Made by a program: the position numbers and the translations under genes. Of a stretch of 64,000 nucleotides of DNA, positions 46,968-52,842 are shown one piece after another; positions within the stretch are counted from its first letter, which is position 1; each line of letters starts with the position of its first letter. The DNA is from Thermococcus profundus. Lineage in GTDB: Archaea; Methanobacteriota_B; Thermococci; Thermococcales; Thermococcaceae. A model generated the notes under the pieces. That model was not told the DNA's origin. It saw only the letters and a list, made by a program, of their open reading frames with translations, and did no database searches. The stretch spans positions 1,674,001 through 1,738,000 of the forward strand of contig NZ_CP014862.1 in the NCBI RefSeq assembly GCF_002214585.1, in the 5' to 3' direction.

Positions 46968-48932
46968 TTACAACACCAACGACACTCCATCTTTCCTCAT
47001 GAACTCCACAAACCGCCTGTAAGTGGAATGATCCGAAAGCGTCGATGAGTCTCCAACGACTATAAGCTTTCTTTTAGCCCTTGTTAAGGAGACGTTGAGC
47101 CTTCTAAGGTCGGTCAGAAAGCCGAGCTCGCCCCTCTCGTTGGAGCGGACGAAGGACAGGATGATAACTTCCTTCTCCCTTCCCTGGTAGCCGTCGACCG
47201 TTTTGACCTCGACCTCTTCGCCAACCATCGAGCTTATCAAATCCCTCTGGTCGTCGTAGGGAGTTATGACTCCAACCCACTCGGGCTTTACGCCCATTTC
47301 CATTAATTTCCCAACGGCCTCTGCGACGAGCTTCGCCTCAAGCGGGTTCTCCCTGCTGTCGCTTCCGCGCCTCTGCCTCTCGAAGCGGTCTTCCCTCTTT
47401 GAAGTGTCAATGAAGACCAGCACGTTTTCGGGCTTGAGGATAGTATCCCAAAAATCCCCGAACTCGGGTTCTCTAACTCCCAAATCCTCCAGCGTGATGT
47501 TTCTAACGCTCTCGTGGGCCTCTATTTTGCCATCGTAGAACTCCCTGCTCGGGAACTCCATCAGCCTCTCGTTCATCCTGTACTGAATCCTGAGCATCTC
47601 GCTCTTCTCCGGATAGCGCTCTATTAGGCCCTCAAAGAGAGTCTTTGAAAGCTCCCTCGCCTTCTCGCTCAGTATCGTCGGCGGGAGCTGTTTGTGGTCT
47701 CCGGCAAGCACAAACCTTTTCGCCCTGTTTATCGGGATGAGGACACTTGGGATGGTTGCCTGGGTCGCCTCGTCTATCACCGCTATGTCGTATTCGCCGT
47801 AGTCAATAACCTCTAAACCTGCGGATGCATTCGTCGTAAGAACCACGTCCGCTTCTCGAATTATCTCCCTTGCTATCCTCTCCTCAAGCTTCCTGGCATC
47901 GTCAAAGGTCTTCTTGACCTGCTGATTGAGCTTTATCCACTCCGCCATCTCCCTGATTACTCTCGCTGAAATCCCCCTCGTTCCAATTCCTTTGTCAGCC
48001 AGCCTCAAAATCTCCCTGTCACCCAGACCCCTCCTGTATTTTGGGGCCGGCTTGGTGAAGGTGTCCCTCTTCTCCTTGAGGTTTTCGCCGATTACTCTAA
48101 GCTCTCTCAGCTCTCCGTAGAGGTTGTGCTGGGTGATCAGATAGGCGAGCGTCGTCTCGTGGAGCGCCTTGGAGACCCTGCTGGGGTGGCCAACTCTGAC
48201 AACCTTAAGCCCCGAATCAACGAGCCTCTCAACTATGTTGTCAACTGCCACGTTGCTCTCGGCCGTTGCGAGGACCTTGTGTCCCCTCTCAACTTCCTGC
48301 CTTATCAGCTCCACCAGAGTTCTCGTCTTTCCAGTCCCAAAGGGGCCGTGTACGAGGAAGAAGTCCTCACTCCCAAGGGCCTCGGCTATGGCCCGCCTCT
48401 GACTCGCGTTCAGGCTCTTGTCGAAGGGAGTAAAATTGAGGGGTTCGCCCTTCTCAGGTTCTCTCAACCCGAGATACAGCTCAAGGGCCCGCCTTCCGCT
48501 CTCCCTCAGGTTGTTCAAGTTCTCCAGCCAGCGCTTGAAGGTTATATCGTTTGCATAGAGATCCAATCTAACGCCTTTAAGTGCCCACTCCGGGACGGTT
48601 TCGAGGGCCACAGTTAGAAAGCGCTTCCCCTTCTCCACGACGGTTCCAACAAGATCGCTCTTGAGCGGGTCGCGTTTGCTGATTACAACGAGGTCGCCAA
48701 CGCTTATCTCGGTCTTAATCTCCCTATCCCGTCCATATCTCACCAGAAAATAGCCGAGCTCCTCGCCGACTACCTTCCCGTTGAGGCCGAGAACCGCTCT
48801 CCCAACTTTTTCCCTCTCCCTACCGCTGAGGCGCCTCATCTCTAAGCGCATGGCCTCAATCTCGGCCTTCCGCTCCATCTCAATCAAAACCCTCAGGTGA
48901 GAGATGAACTTTGCAAGTTTCTCCGCTTCCAT
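46968..48932 (-). CDS. SF1B helicase, UPF1/IGHMBP2-like
   Basis: A 654-aa superfamily 1 helicase. Motif [15 protein letters not shown] (about 196), motif II DEATQAT (about 390), motif [12 protein letters not shown], motif IV QYRMNE, motif [14 protein letters not shown] and motif [15 protein letters not shown] are all present, as in the Upf1/Dna2/SMUBP-2 group. The N-terminal beta-barrel domain (1B-like, [12 protein letters not shown]) is present, but no nuclease or zinc domain is fused. Probably 5'-3' unwinding of DNA/RNA; cellular role unknown. Confidence 0.92.
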
Positions 48933-48979
48933 TTTTCTCTCCCGGTTTCAAAAAGAGATGTGCCTTAAAAGAGTTGAGG

Positions 48980-49036
48980 GTGGTCAGCCCATGCGAGTTT
49001 CCTCACCGCTCGGACGAAACTTCCCTCATCATCCCG
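48980..49036 (-). ncRNA. C/D-box guide sRNA
   Basis: Minus strand, in order: C box ATGATGA (49032-49026), 12-nt guide GGGAAGTTTCGT, D' box CCGA (49013-49010), GCG, C' box GTGAGGA (49006-49000), 12-nt guide AACTCGCATGGG, D box CTGA (48987-48984). Both guides have exactly the archaeal 12-nt length. The second is complementary to CCAUGCGAGU, which occurs near the 5' end of archaeal 16S rRNA; by the D+5 rule it would direct 2'-O-methylation at the U of CCAU. The first guide pairs imperfectly with GCGAAACCUCC of 16S rRNA. A TATA-like TTTTTAACC (about 49056-49064) is about 25 nt upstream. It would act with L7Ae, Nop5 and fibrillarin. Confidence 0.8.
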
Positions 49037-49064
49037 GGGAGAATAGAATGGAGAGGTTAAAAAG

Positions 49065-49373
49065 CTAAGCCCTCTCCATTGAGAGAACAACGACTATGTC
49101 GCGGTAGAAAGACTTCACTGCCCTTAAGTGCCTCTCCTCAACGATCCCTGCCCTGGAGACGTGCTCGTAGTACCTCTCAAGCTGGTCAAGCAACCACTGA
49201 AGCTCCTCTCTGGCCCTAGGGCTGAAGCCATTGCCCAAAAGCTTGCCCCTCAAAAACGGCATGACCTCAGACGGACGGCCGAGCGCGGCCCAGAAAAGAC
49301 CCTCTTTTAACACATCGAACAAGAGCTCCTCTGAGTTTTCCCTAACGAACGGTTTCTCCCTCCCCCCTTTCAA
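49065..49373 (-). CDS. Conserved hypothetical protein, apparently frameshifted at its start
   Basis: A 102-aa alpha-helical protein as read from a TTG at 49373 that has no good ribosome site. If the G run at 49362-49367 (six on minus) had five, the frame would continue upstream to ATG 49416, preceded by GGTGATGTCC, giving a protein of about 118 aa starting MMGEVEVVRKAPGKLERG. I think that is the true gene. No family recognised; helical segments with ELQWLLDQLERYYEH suggest a small helical bundle. Confidence 0.65.
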   Translation of the reverse strand: MKGGREKPFVRENSEELLFDVLKEGLFWAALGRPSEVMPFLRGKLLGNGFSPRAREELQWLLDQLERYYEHVSRAGIVEERHLRAVKSFYRDIVVVLSMERA

Positions 49374-49739: not shown

Positions 49740-49770
49740 CTACCGCGGGTACTCCAACCAGGTGAGATCG

Positions 49771-51171
49771 ATGACATCCATTGGAATCATCGGCGGCGGC
49801 ATTGCTGGACTGACTGCCGCGCTGTCACTGGCGGGGCGCGGCTACGAGGTTACGCTCATCCACACCGGGATAAAGAGTACGAACTCATATCTGGCCCAGG
49901 CGGGTGTTGCCATTCCAGTTCTAGAGGGAGACTCTCCGAGGGCTCACGTCATCGACACGGTAAAAGCCGGCAAGTACCTCAACGACGAGGAAGTTGTCTG
50001 GAGCGTGATATCAAAGGCCAGTGAGGCCTACGGCTTCCTCCTCTCTCTAGGCCTGAAGTTCGAGACCAACGAAACCGAGGGGGGCCATTCCTTTCCAAGG
50101 GTCTTCACGATAAAGAACGAGACGGGAAAGCACCTGACCAAGATACTCTATCTCCACGCGAGGGAAAAAGGGGTCAACTTCATTAGGGGAAGGGCCGAAG
50201 AGCTTGCCGTTAAGCACGGGAAGGCCTACGGTGTTTTCGTGGACGGCGAGTTCCTGAAGTTCGACGCAACGGTAATAGCCTCAGGGGGCTTTACTGGGCT
50301 CTTCAAGTACACCGCGGGTTCTCCAACGAACATTGGAACCCTAATCGGGGATGCGGTGATGAAAGGGGCTTTTGCAAGGGATCTTGAGTTCGTCCAGTTC
50401 CATCCGACAGGTTTCATCGGAAAAGATGGGGTCAAGCTCATCAGCGAGGCCGTGAGAGGAGCCGGTGCGAAGCTCGTAACCGAGGATGGGGAGCGCTTCG
50501 TAAACGAGCTCTCAACGAGGGACATAGTGGCGAGGGCAATATACCTCCAGATGAAGGGAGGGAAGGGGGTCTTCCTCGACGCCACGGGGATTGAGGGCTT
50601 CAAGAAGAGGTTTCCGCAGATCTACGCCTTCCTGGCCAAGGAGGGAATTGATCCAGCGAAGGACTGGATACCAGTGACGCCAATAGCCCACTACACCATC
50701 GGGGGAATATCAGTTGACCTATGGTACAGGACTGGAATTAAAAACCTCTACGCGATAGGAGAGACCGCGAGCAACGGCTTCCATGGGGCAAACAGACTCG
50801 CGAGCAACTCCCTCCTTGAGTGCGTCGTCTCCGGCCTTGAAGTGGCAAGGACGATAGAGAGGGACAGACCGAGGGTCAGGGAGGTAAAGGAGCCCCATTA
50901 TCACGGCTACGAGAATGGGGACGTTGAGTCCATCAGGAGAATCCTGTGGGAGCATGCCGGAATAGTTCGGAACGCGAGAACGCTCAGGGAGGGCCTGAAG
51001 AAGCTGGATGGTGTTGAAGCAGACCCAAGGATGAAGCTCCTCGCGAGGGGGGTCCTGGAGTGCGCGCTGGCAAGGGAGGAGAGCAGAGGGGCACACTACC
51101 GCGAGGATTTTCCGGCGATGAGAAAGGAGTTTGAGAGGCCGAGCTTTTTTGACGGGAAGTGCAGGCTATAA
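49771..51171 (+). CDS. nadB: L-aspartate oxidase
   Basis: A 466-aa FAD enzyme that oxidises L-aspartate to iminoaspartate, the first step of de novo NAD synthesis. FAD-binding GIIGGGIAGLTAAL at the N-terminus; fumarate-reductase-like motifs SYLAQAGVA, HPTGF and HYTIGGISVD; and the GANRLASNSLLE motif near the C-terminus. The length is shorter than the bacterial enzyme (about 540), as usual in Thermococcales. Start ATG 49771 after AGGTGAGATCG. It works with NadA (51934) and NadC (54238) nearby. Confidence 0.93.
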   Translation: MTSIGIIGGGIAGLTAALSLAGRGYEVTLIHTGIKSTNSYLAQAGVAIPVLEGDSPRAHVIDTVKAGKYLNDEEVVWSVISKASEAYGFLLSLGLKFETNETEGGHSFPRVFTIKNETGKHLTKILYLHAREKGVNFIRGRAEELAVKHGKAYGVFVDGEFLKFDATVIASGGFTGLFKYTAGSPTNIGTLIGDAVMKGAFARDLEFVQFHPTGFIGKDGVKLISEAVRGAGAKLVTEDGERFVNELSTRDIVARAIYLQMKGGKGVFLDATGIEGFKKRFPQIYAFLAKEGIDPAKDWIPVTPIAHYTIGGISVDLWYRTGIKNLYAIGETASNGFHGANRLASNSLLECVVSGLEVARTIERDRPRVREVKEPHYHGYENGDVESIRRILWEHAGIVRNARTLREGLKKLDGVEADPRMKLLARGVLECALAREESRGAHYREDFPAMRKEFERPSFFDGKCRL

Positions 51172-51213
51172 CGTTAAATAGGCTCTCATTTAATAATGCT
51201 GTGGGTGGAGCCA

Positions 51214-51417
51214 ATGCCCAAGATCATAGAAGCAATTTATGAAGAAGGAGTTATAAAACCTCTAAAACCCCTCTCGCTGCCCTCAAAAAAGCTCGTGCTC
51301 TACATAGAGGAGAGGAGATTTTCAGACCTTGTGGACGAGCTTGAGCTGGAAGCGCGTGAAGATGTTGAGGAGGGCATCAAAGCCATCCGGAGAGGGGATC
51401 ATGAGAGTGGTTCTTGA
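51214..51417 (+). CDS. vapB: Antitoxin, DUF104/AF2212-like (VapB partner)
   Basis: A 67-aa protein of the DUF104 type: PKIIEAIYEEGVIKPLKPLSL is the family's N-terminal beta hairpin, followed by an acidic helix. The ATG at 51214 follows GGGTGGAGCCA. The last 17 nt overlap the toxin gene, which itself carries a nonsense codon, so this antitoxin may now be without a full partner. Confidence 0.8.
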   Translation: MPKIIEAIYEEGVIKPLKPLSLPSKKLVLYIEERRFSDLVDELELEAREDVEEGIKAIRRGDHESGS

Positions 51418-51871
51418 TACGAGCGTTATAGCAAAGGCTCTGCTGAGACCGCGAAAAAGCCTTCCAAAGGAGATTTTTGAAAGGGAGAGCGAGACCCATA
51501 GAAAATCGAAGCTGATAATACACCTATGCGATTCTCATAACGTAGCTTTACCCAAAGCTGGTCTCGTCGAAGTTGCCAGCGTCTTGAAGAGAAACGGCCA
51601 CGAGAGGGTGATTCCGCAGGTTCTTGAGTCCCTTTCCATCTCCTATGAAGTTCTCTAAGAAGAAGAGTTTTTTGAAGATGCAATTGAAGTCGCATCCAAA
51701 ACCGGTGCAGCCGGCTTTGACTGTTATTTTATGGCCCTGGCTATGGTGAGAGACGCCCTGTTGATAACGGACGACGAGAAAATGGCCCACCACACAAGAT
51801 CACTTGGGATACGAAGCCTCCTCGTTAGAGAACTTAGTGAAGAGGAAATCACCAACTTGCTGTCCCCTTAA
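51401..51871 (+). pseudogene. vapC: VapC-type PIN toxin gene interrupted by a nonsense codon
   Basis: The frame starts MRVVLDTSVIAKALLRP (Asp6 of the PIN active site) and runs to a TAA at 51656-51658. The same frame continues beyond without shift: EEEFFEDAIEVASKTG, then the PIN motifs GFDCYFMALA and LLITDDEKM, ending at TAA 51869-51871. A single base change (for example GAA to TAA) explains it. The first 85 residues lack the third and fourth acidic residues, so the truncated product should be inactive unless the stop is read through. Confidence 0.88.
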
Positions 51872-51933: not shown

Positions 51934-52842
51934 ATGGAGAGGGAGAAGCTCATCGAGGAGATAAACCGCCTGAAAGAGGAGAGAAAAGCCATAATCATGG
52001 CCCACAACTACCAGCTGCCCGAAGTGCAGGACATAGCCGACTTCCTCGGCGACAGCCTTGAGCTCGCGAGAAAAGCTGTCAACGTCGATGCAGATGTGAT
52101 AGTCTTTGCCGGCGTTGACTTCATGGCCGAGACCGCGAAGATTCTCAATCCAGGTAAAACCGTCCTCCTTCCAACCAGGAGAGCCACCTGCGCGATGGCC
52201 AACATGCTCACAGTTAGGCACATCCTTGAGGCGAAGGAGAAGTATCCCGACGCTCCCGTTGTTCTCTACGTCAACAGCACCGCGGAGGCCAAGGCTCTTG
52301 CTGATGTAACCGTTACCTCAGCCAACGCCGCTAAAATCGTTTCAAAGCTCGATTCAGACGTTGTGATATTCGGCCCGGACAAGAACCTCGGCCATTACGT
52401 CGCCAAAATGACCGGCAAGAAGATAATCCCAGTTCCGCCGAACGGCCACTGCTACGTCCACAGAAAGTTCACGCTGGAGGACGTTGAGAGGGCTAGGCAA
52501 CTCTACCCGAACGCCAAGCTCATGGTTCACCCGGAGTGCGAGCCAGAAGTGCAGGAGCGGGCAGACGTGATAGTTTCAACCGGCGGCATGATCAAGAGGG
52601 CCCCAGAGTGGGACGAGTGGGTAGTCTTCACGGAGAGGGAGATGGTGTACCGCCTCCAGAGGCTCTATCCGAACATAAAGTTCCACCCAGCCAGAGAAGA
52701 TGCAACCTGCATCGGGATGAAGGCGATAACACTCCAGCACGTCTACGAGTCGCTCAGGGACATGAAATACGAGGTGGAAGTGCCGAAAGAAATAGCGGAG
52801 AAGGCGAGAAAAGCCATCGAGCGGATGCTGGAGATGAGCTGA
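51934..52842 (+). CDS. nadA: Quinolinate synthase A
   Basis: A 302-aa [4Fe-4S] enzyme that condenses iminoaspartate with dihydroxyacetone phosphate to quinolinate. The three cluster cysteines are in [18 protein letters not shown] and [26 protein letters not shown] and [11 protein letters not shown] are the family's substrate motifs. Length as in other archaeal NadA. The ATG follows GGGGTGAGAAA. Separated from nadB by the broken toxin locus. Confidence 0.95.

Follow-up and report, generated by a model that had tools for sequence, protein, structure and literature searches.

A box C/D sRNA conserved in Thermococcaceae carries guides complementary to two sites that adjoin in the 16S rRNA fold

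Results

On the minus strand of the 64,000 nt stretch of the Thermococcus profundus genome analysed here (the window), a gap separates a small ORF, whose stop codon is at 49065, from a helicase gene starting at 48932. The first-pass annotation had placed a box C/D sRNA with a 16S rRNA guide in this gap, and that observation is confirmed: a box C/D sRNA gene of about 55 nt (48982–49036, minus strand) is recognised from its sequence, its homologues and its conservation, with the ends set from a conserved GG and CC. It consists of box C (ATGATGA, 49026–49032, alignment columns 97–100% identical), the D′ guide (GGGAAGTTTCGT, 12 nt, 49014–49025), box D′ (CCGA, 49010–49013), a 3 nt spacer (GCG, 49007–49009), box C′ (GTGAGGA, 49000–49006), the D guide (AACTCGCATGGG, 12 nt, 48988–48999) and box D (CTGA, 48984–48987), all on the minus strand. 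Box order and guide lengths are thus as originally annotated, with near-consensus box sequences that can be read directly, although boxes D′ and C′ each differ by one letter from the consensus. Among 39 distinct cores from the family, box D is identical in 39/39, while box D′ is CCGA in 29, CTGA in six and CAGA in four; the D′-C′ spacer, which presumably has the length of a K-loop, is equally long in all 39, which were collected by ungapped matching. The GG before box C (49035–49034) can pair with the CC after box D (48983–48982), giving a possible terminal stem of two pairs.

A loose C/D pattern had this locus as its single match in the window, and no match in 200 order-1 Markov windows; this pattern was composed after viewing the sequence, and misses the second box C/D sRNA of the window, Rfam sR43 (RF01128, 40927–40991, minus strand, 73.2 bits against a threshold of 45). 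Conservation is a stronger and independent test. A homologue was detected with a 75 nt query in 86 of 94 Thermococcaceae genomes, including the genome of the window, and in 73 of the 74 good genomes of the family; three genomes have an extra weak, partial match. Of the eight genomes lacking a match, one is 96% complete and the other seven are 53–88% complete. The pattern of box C′, D guide and box D was found in 84/94 Thermococcaceae genomes with one match each, and in none of 21 other genomes of the class, with a reversed control also giving none. We take the family to be Thermococcaceae and its genera to include Thermococcus and Pyrococcus. In the genome taken as T. kodakarensis the 16S rRNA gene is located at 2022864–2024352, in accordance with the published 16S circle at 2022801–2024382 (PMC9014305), and the sRNA copy at 254597–254657 (plus strand); the copy in the P. 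abyssi-like genome is at 473182–473235 (minus strand).

The alignment comprised 99 rows from 74 of the 86 homologue-bearing genomes, some represented twice and one locus at a contig end dropped, which collapse to the 39 distinct cores, or to 67 distinct rows when flanks are included. In these 67 rows the box and guide-core columns are 84–100% identical (mostly 97–100%), the lowest box columns being the second base of box D′ (85%) and the fifth base of box C′ (84%); the exceptions are two toggling positions in the D′ guide and the purine opening box C′ (63%). Flanking columns are mostly 30–80% identical. The boxes are therefore conserved in related genomes, as would be expected from the annotation.

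The downstream helicase carries the Pfam domains AAA_11 and AAA_12, and the upstream 102 aa ORF has no Pfam match. Comparison of 70 loci placed the helicase downstream of the sRNA in 33/41 Thermococcus loci and in 0/29 others, and a homologue of the upstream ORF in 35/41 Thermococcus and 19/29 other loci (partial at one locus, and of undefined position at the contig-end locus), with 0/9 in Pyrococcus; the T. kodakarensis locus has neither neighbour. The sRNA is therefore kept where its neighbours change. A TATA-like element (TTTTTAA, 49057–49063, minus strand) is located directly past the stop codon of the upstream ORF and ends 24 nt before gATGATGA, in agreement with the median spacing of 23 bp between TATA box and start site in T. 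kodakarensis (PMC4247193). Its columns (−30 to −24) are 58–94% identical, with a few C's behind them, and form the exception among the upstream flanks. The annotated TATA-like box is thus present at a distance fitting an archaeal promoter and conserved in place, and from its sequence and position it would act as the sRNA's own promoter.

A terminator-like hairpin was also observed at the end of the upstream ORF (49069–49088, minus strand), with a T-rich tail overlapping the TATA-like element. Another motif, TTTTAAG (48964–48970, minus strand), is located some 32 nt upstream of the helicase start codon. It may be a promoter belonging to the helicase gene itself, in which case the sRNA would not have to be a 5′ leader of the helicase mRNA. 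Elsewhere in the window (51211–51658, plus strand), a gene for an AF2212-like small protein (Pfam PF01954) overlaps a short ORF with MRVVLDTSVIAKALL, which to us resembles the beginning of a PIN protein (the part tested matched nothing in Pfam); the two form a possible VapBC-like pair, and the ORFs flanking it look like nadB (49762–51171) and nadA (51934–52842).

The D guide was annotated as complementary to the 5′ region of 16S rRNA, with the U of CCAU as the methylated nucleotide. Alignment of the guides with rRNA bore this out, with ten Watson-Crick pairs to 16S nt 49–58 in the same genome; in this duplex the fifth guide base counted from box D (N+5) faces U52, the U of CCAU. The pairing was compared in 16 genomes (18 queried, three of these without rRNA, and the window's own genome added), and is present in 16/16, with ten Watson-Crick pairs in 15 and nine plus a G-U pair in one, the N+5 pair being Watson-Crick in all. 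When the 16 genomes are pooled, this site is the best over 16S and 23S rRNA, with its score reached by 0/100 and 2/1500 column permutations, and in a single-genome test 5/300 shuffled guides equalled the D guide. The guide core is 99–100% identical per column, and the duplex has a predicted energy of −18.6 kcal/mol at 37°C in this genome, of which −5.0 is left at 85°C. These complementarities support a D guide that directs 2′-O-methylation of U52. This nucleotide, numbered 64 in the P. abyssi structure, is absent from the 44 modelled P. abyssi 16S modifications, among which only Am373, Cm1376 and ac4Cm250 carry ribose methyls (PMC7005279). With three ribose methyls against 59 C/D sRNA genes in P. 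abyssi (PMC3124441), the list is probably incomplete, and the absence of U52 is weak evidence.

For the D′ guide a second target is predicted, A349, which the first-pass annotation had missed, and which is better backed by outside data than U52. The best rRNA site of this guide is 16S 346–355 (CGAAACCTCC; 345–356 over the 12 nt guide), with exactly one mismatch in 16/16 genomes; A349, equivalent to A352 in T. kodakarensis, is the N+5 base and is located within an unbroken paired stretch, so that the mismatch is not at the predicted methylation site. The core, GGA(AG or GA)TTTCG, is invariant apart from the two-letter toggle, with AG in 16 and GA in 23 distinct cores. The Thermococcus type carries GGAAGTTTCG and other genera carry GGAGATTTCG, each one G-to-A change away from the perfect complement GGAGGTTTCG, and the resulting A-C mismatch falls on C352 for the AG type (4 genomes) or C351 for the GA type (12 genomes). 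No core with zero or two mismatches was found among the 39 distinct cores, representing 74 of the 86 homologue-bearing genomes. The D′ and D sites each rank first in 8/8 genomes ranked, in the case of D′ among about 4500 sites. Other candidate sites for the D′ guide scored worse than its mean of 8.00: 16S 547–556, where seven core bases pair in the non-Thermococcus type (mean 5.55), 16S 1159–1168 (6.00) and the best 23S site (6.40).

The pooled D′ score was reached by 1/100 and 33/1500 permutations, which makes the pairing alone suggestive, and the scoring itself (16 genomes pooled, mismatch allowed) was set after viewing the conserved core and is partly post hoc. A search within the window's own genome gave no D′ target (best score 7.3 against a shuffled mean of 7.8, with 225/300 shuffles as good), because that score demanded an unbroken run, whereas the D′ duplex has at most six consecutive Watson-Crick core pairs, or seven with a flanking pair in one genome. 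Its predicted energy at 37°C is −12.8 kcal/mol here and −11.9 for the P. abyssi duplex, and is close to zero at 85°C; given this weakness, a working D′ guide would function within the sRNP, anchored by the D duplex.

Outside support for A349 comes from the 3.2 Å cryo-EM map of the P. abyssi small subunit, in which the single 2′-O-methyl-A among the 44 modifications of 16S rRNA is Am373, with LC-HRMS confirming the kinds of nucleosides present (Coureux et al. 2020, PMC7005279). Subtracting 12 from the published numbering places 34/34 published ac4C on the middle C of CCG in the P. abyssi-like 16S rRNA of 1497 nt, as opposed to 0 to 3 of 34 for the other shifts between 0 and 21. Am373 then corresponds to A361, the nucleotide that the D′ guide of that genome addresses at N+5, and the equivalent of A349 thus matches the published Am; this match was looked up only after the D′ site had been assigned. 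A review table also lists Am361 of P. abyssi on the same line as human Am484 and yeast Am436 (PMC11542601), but its P. abyssi column may rest on the guide predictions of Gaspin 2000, and was therefore not counted as independent evidence.

The combined evidence makes it likely that both guides of this box C/D sRNA work, one for U52 and the other for A349, and that the sRNA probably has an additional role in joining two 16S strands. It is unlikely that the sRNA guides U52 only, with the D′ guide merely holding the 346–355 strand or targeting elsewhere and another guide placing the methyl on A349. The invariable D′ mismatch and the 33 permutations noted above would fit such a division, and 16/262 double guides in Dennis et al. 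2015 have an unproductive side (PMC4644070). Against it, the mismatch is off the methylation site and N+5 falls exactly on the published Am, and a search for rival guides of perfect complementarity (GGTTTCG with a D-like box) gave 29 places in nine genomes, with one genome lacking any; none of the 16 places inspected had a consensus box C (exact match) within 45 nt upstream. Exact complements of the D′ guide numbered 52 in ten genomes (18 + 34), ten of these being the sRNA itself. Of the remaining 42, sixteen were inspected, which comprise every such place in six of the ten genomes, and of these none was in a tRNA (ARAGORN, bacterial setting) or an Rfam RNA, none was like another, and none represented a non-rRNA target tracking the AG/GA toggle; one locus holds HgcE RNA, but away from the match.

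The reverse assignment, in which only A349 is methylated and the D guide serves as an anchor, would explain why the P. abyssi list (PMC7005279) contains A361/Am373 and not U52, but we consider it improbable, since it is the D guide that forms the stronger duplex (by the 37°C energies, and with ten Watson-Crick pairs), has the nearly invariant core and keeps a Watson-Crick N+5 pair in every genome compared. That the sRNA guides RNA acetylation, instead of or besides methylation, is very improbable: P. abyssi ac4C379 (367 in its own numbering) is inside the D′ target and ac4C53 (41) is 8 nt before the D target, and a role of small RNAs in guiding Nat10 has been suggested (PMC7005279), but the sRNA has standard methylation-guide geometry, and with 34 ac4C sites spread over 16S rRNA, such nearness to guide targets is not unusual. 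A functionless chance string or spacer remnant, which the off-consensus D′ and C′ boxes might suggest, is next to impossible, being already contradicted by conservation in 86/94 genomes far above the flanks, also beside differing neighbours, and by the empty Markov windows.

Discussion

We propose that the sRNA is transcribed from its own promoter and bound by L7Ae, Nop5 and fibrillarin, the genes for fibrillarin and Nop being adjacent in this genome. The D guide would then pair with 16S 49–58 and direct 2′-O-methylation of U52, and the D′ guide would pair with 16S 346–355, tolerating the single A-C mismatch, and direct methylation of A349. In the structure line of the Rfam archaeal 16S model, counted by hand, nt 48–50 and 52–54 pair with 339–344, which we take to be helix 5, and the two targets therefore adjoin in the fold despite a separation of about 290 nt. 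The D guide covers one strand of this long-range helix and the D′ guide is located beside the partner strand, and the sRNP would probably also bring both 16S strands together during 30S assembly. More speculatively, and with a low likelihood, the D′ mismatch may be under selection to make the A349 side the second to pair and the first to be released, which would make the sRNA a timed folding clamp as well as a methylation guide.

Rfam 15 gave no family above threshold at the sRNA in the window, nor at 13 loci scanned among the 70 of relatives. The best match was sR28 (RF01136) with 31.9 bits, below its gathering score of 39; the two agree in box layout and in a portion of the D′ half, whereas the D guide differs in the alignment. 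The sRNA copies may be among the C/D sets published for P. abyssi and T. kodakarensis, with 61 C/D sRNAs given for the latter in PMC9014305 and 54 detected in PMC4247193. Among the circular sRNAs tabulated in PMC9014305 the T. kodakarensis copy is absent, which fits a terminal stem of two pairs, as circular sRNAs mostly have three or more terminal pairs according to that paper. For P. furiosus, RiboMeth-seq data are reportedly deposited (PMC7758197). Literature text searches for ACUCGCAUGG or ACTCGCATGG returned no archaeal paper by title, and a search for snR87 with A436 and 18S returned no match. No occurrence of Am373, Um64, Am361 or Um52 was found either among the papers listed, which is a poor negative since the paper that prints Am373 (PMC7005279) was outside the coverage of the search. 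Systems of this kind are well known, and this is an ordinary RNA type with a target assignment that goes beyond that of the first-pass annotation. Gaspin 2000 reportedly gives guide predictions for archaea, possibly including this P. abyssi site, and the guide for that site may already be in print there.

The locus matters in that the sRNA is the likely guide for a ribose methylation of the P. abyssi 30S subunit which a published table equates with human Am484 and yeast Am436, with a second mark predicted at U52. It offers a clean, family-wide case of a single sRNA that grips a long-range 16S helix from both sides, and the genus is genetically tractable. Almost every genome of the family retains the sRNA, yet it is under every Rfam threshold in the window and at the 13 relatives' loci.

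In comparison with known systems, the sRNA corresponds to the archaeal C/D sRNAs of the Pyrococcus/Thermococcus type, having the same box order, 12 nt guides, 3 nt spacer, N+5 targeting and TATA-like element, with nothing different in kind apart from the D′ and C′ boxes being one letter off consensus. The human SNORD16 (18S Am484) and the yeast guide for Am436 target the equivalent adenosine according to the review table (PMC11542601), and the A349 region resembles, in a visual comparison without gaps, the 18S fragment in PMC5612246; these guides are eukaryotic snoRNAs, and the likeness concerns the target adenosine without a claim of guide homology. A further close parallel is provided by Dennis et al. 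2015, who described sRNAs gripping both sides of a long-range helix and proposed a chaperone role for them (PMC4644070). Their usual demand is nine consecutive Watson-Crick pairs, with a mismatch or G-U pair allowed for some double guides (PMC4644070); the D guide has such a run, and the D′ guide conforms to the relaxed form only. The U52/A349 site pair is in none of the 15 table rows of that study, whose seven species include no Thermococcales (PMC4644070). The targets at 49–58 and 346–355 are, as in that study, more than 100 nt apart yet close in the 16S fold, and in its double guides (Table 3, e.g. N. equitans sR17 and sR15) two guides likewise flank a long-range 16S helix (PMC4644070).
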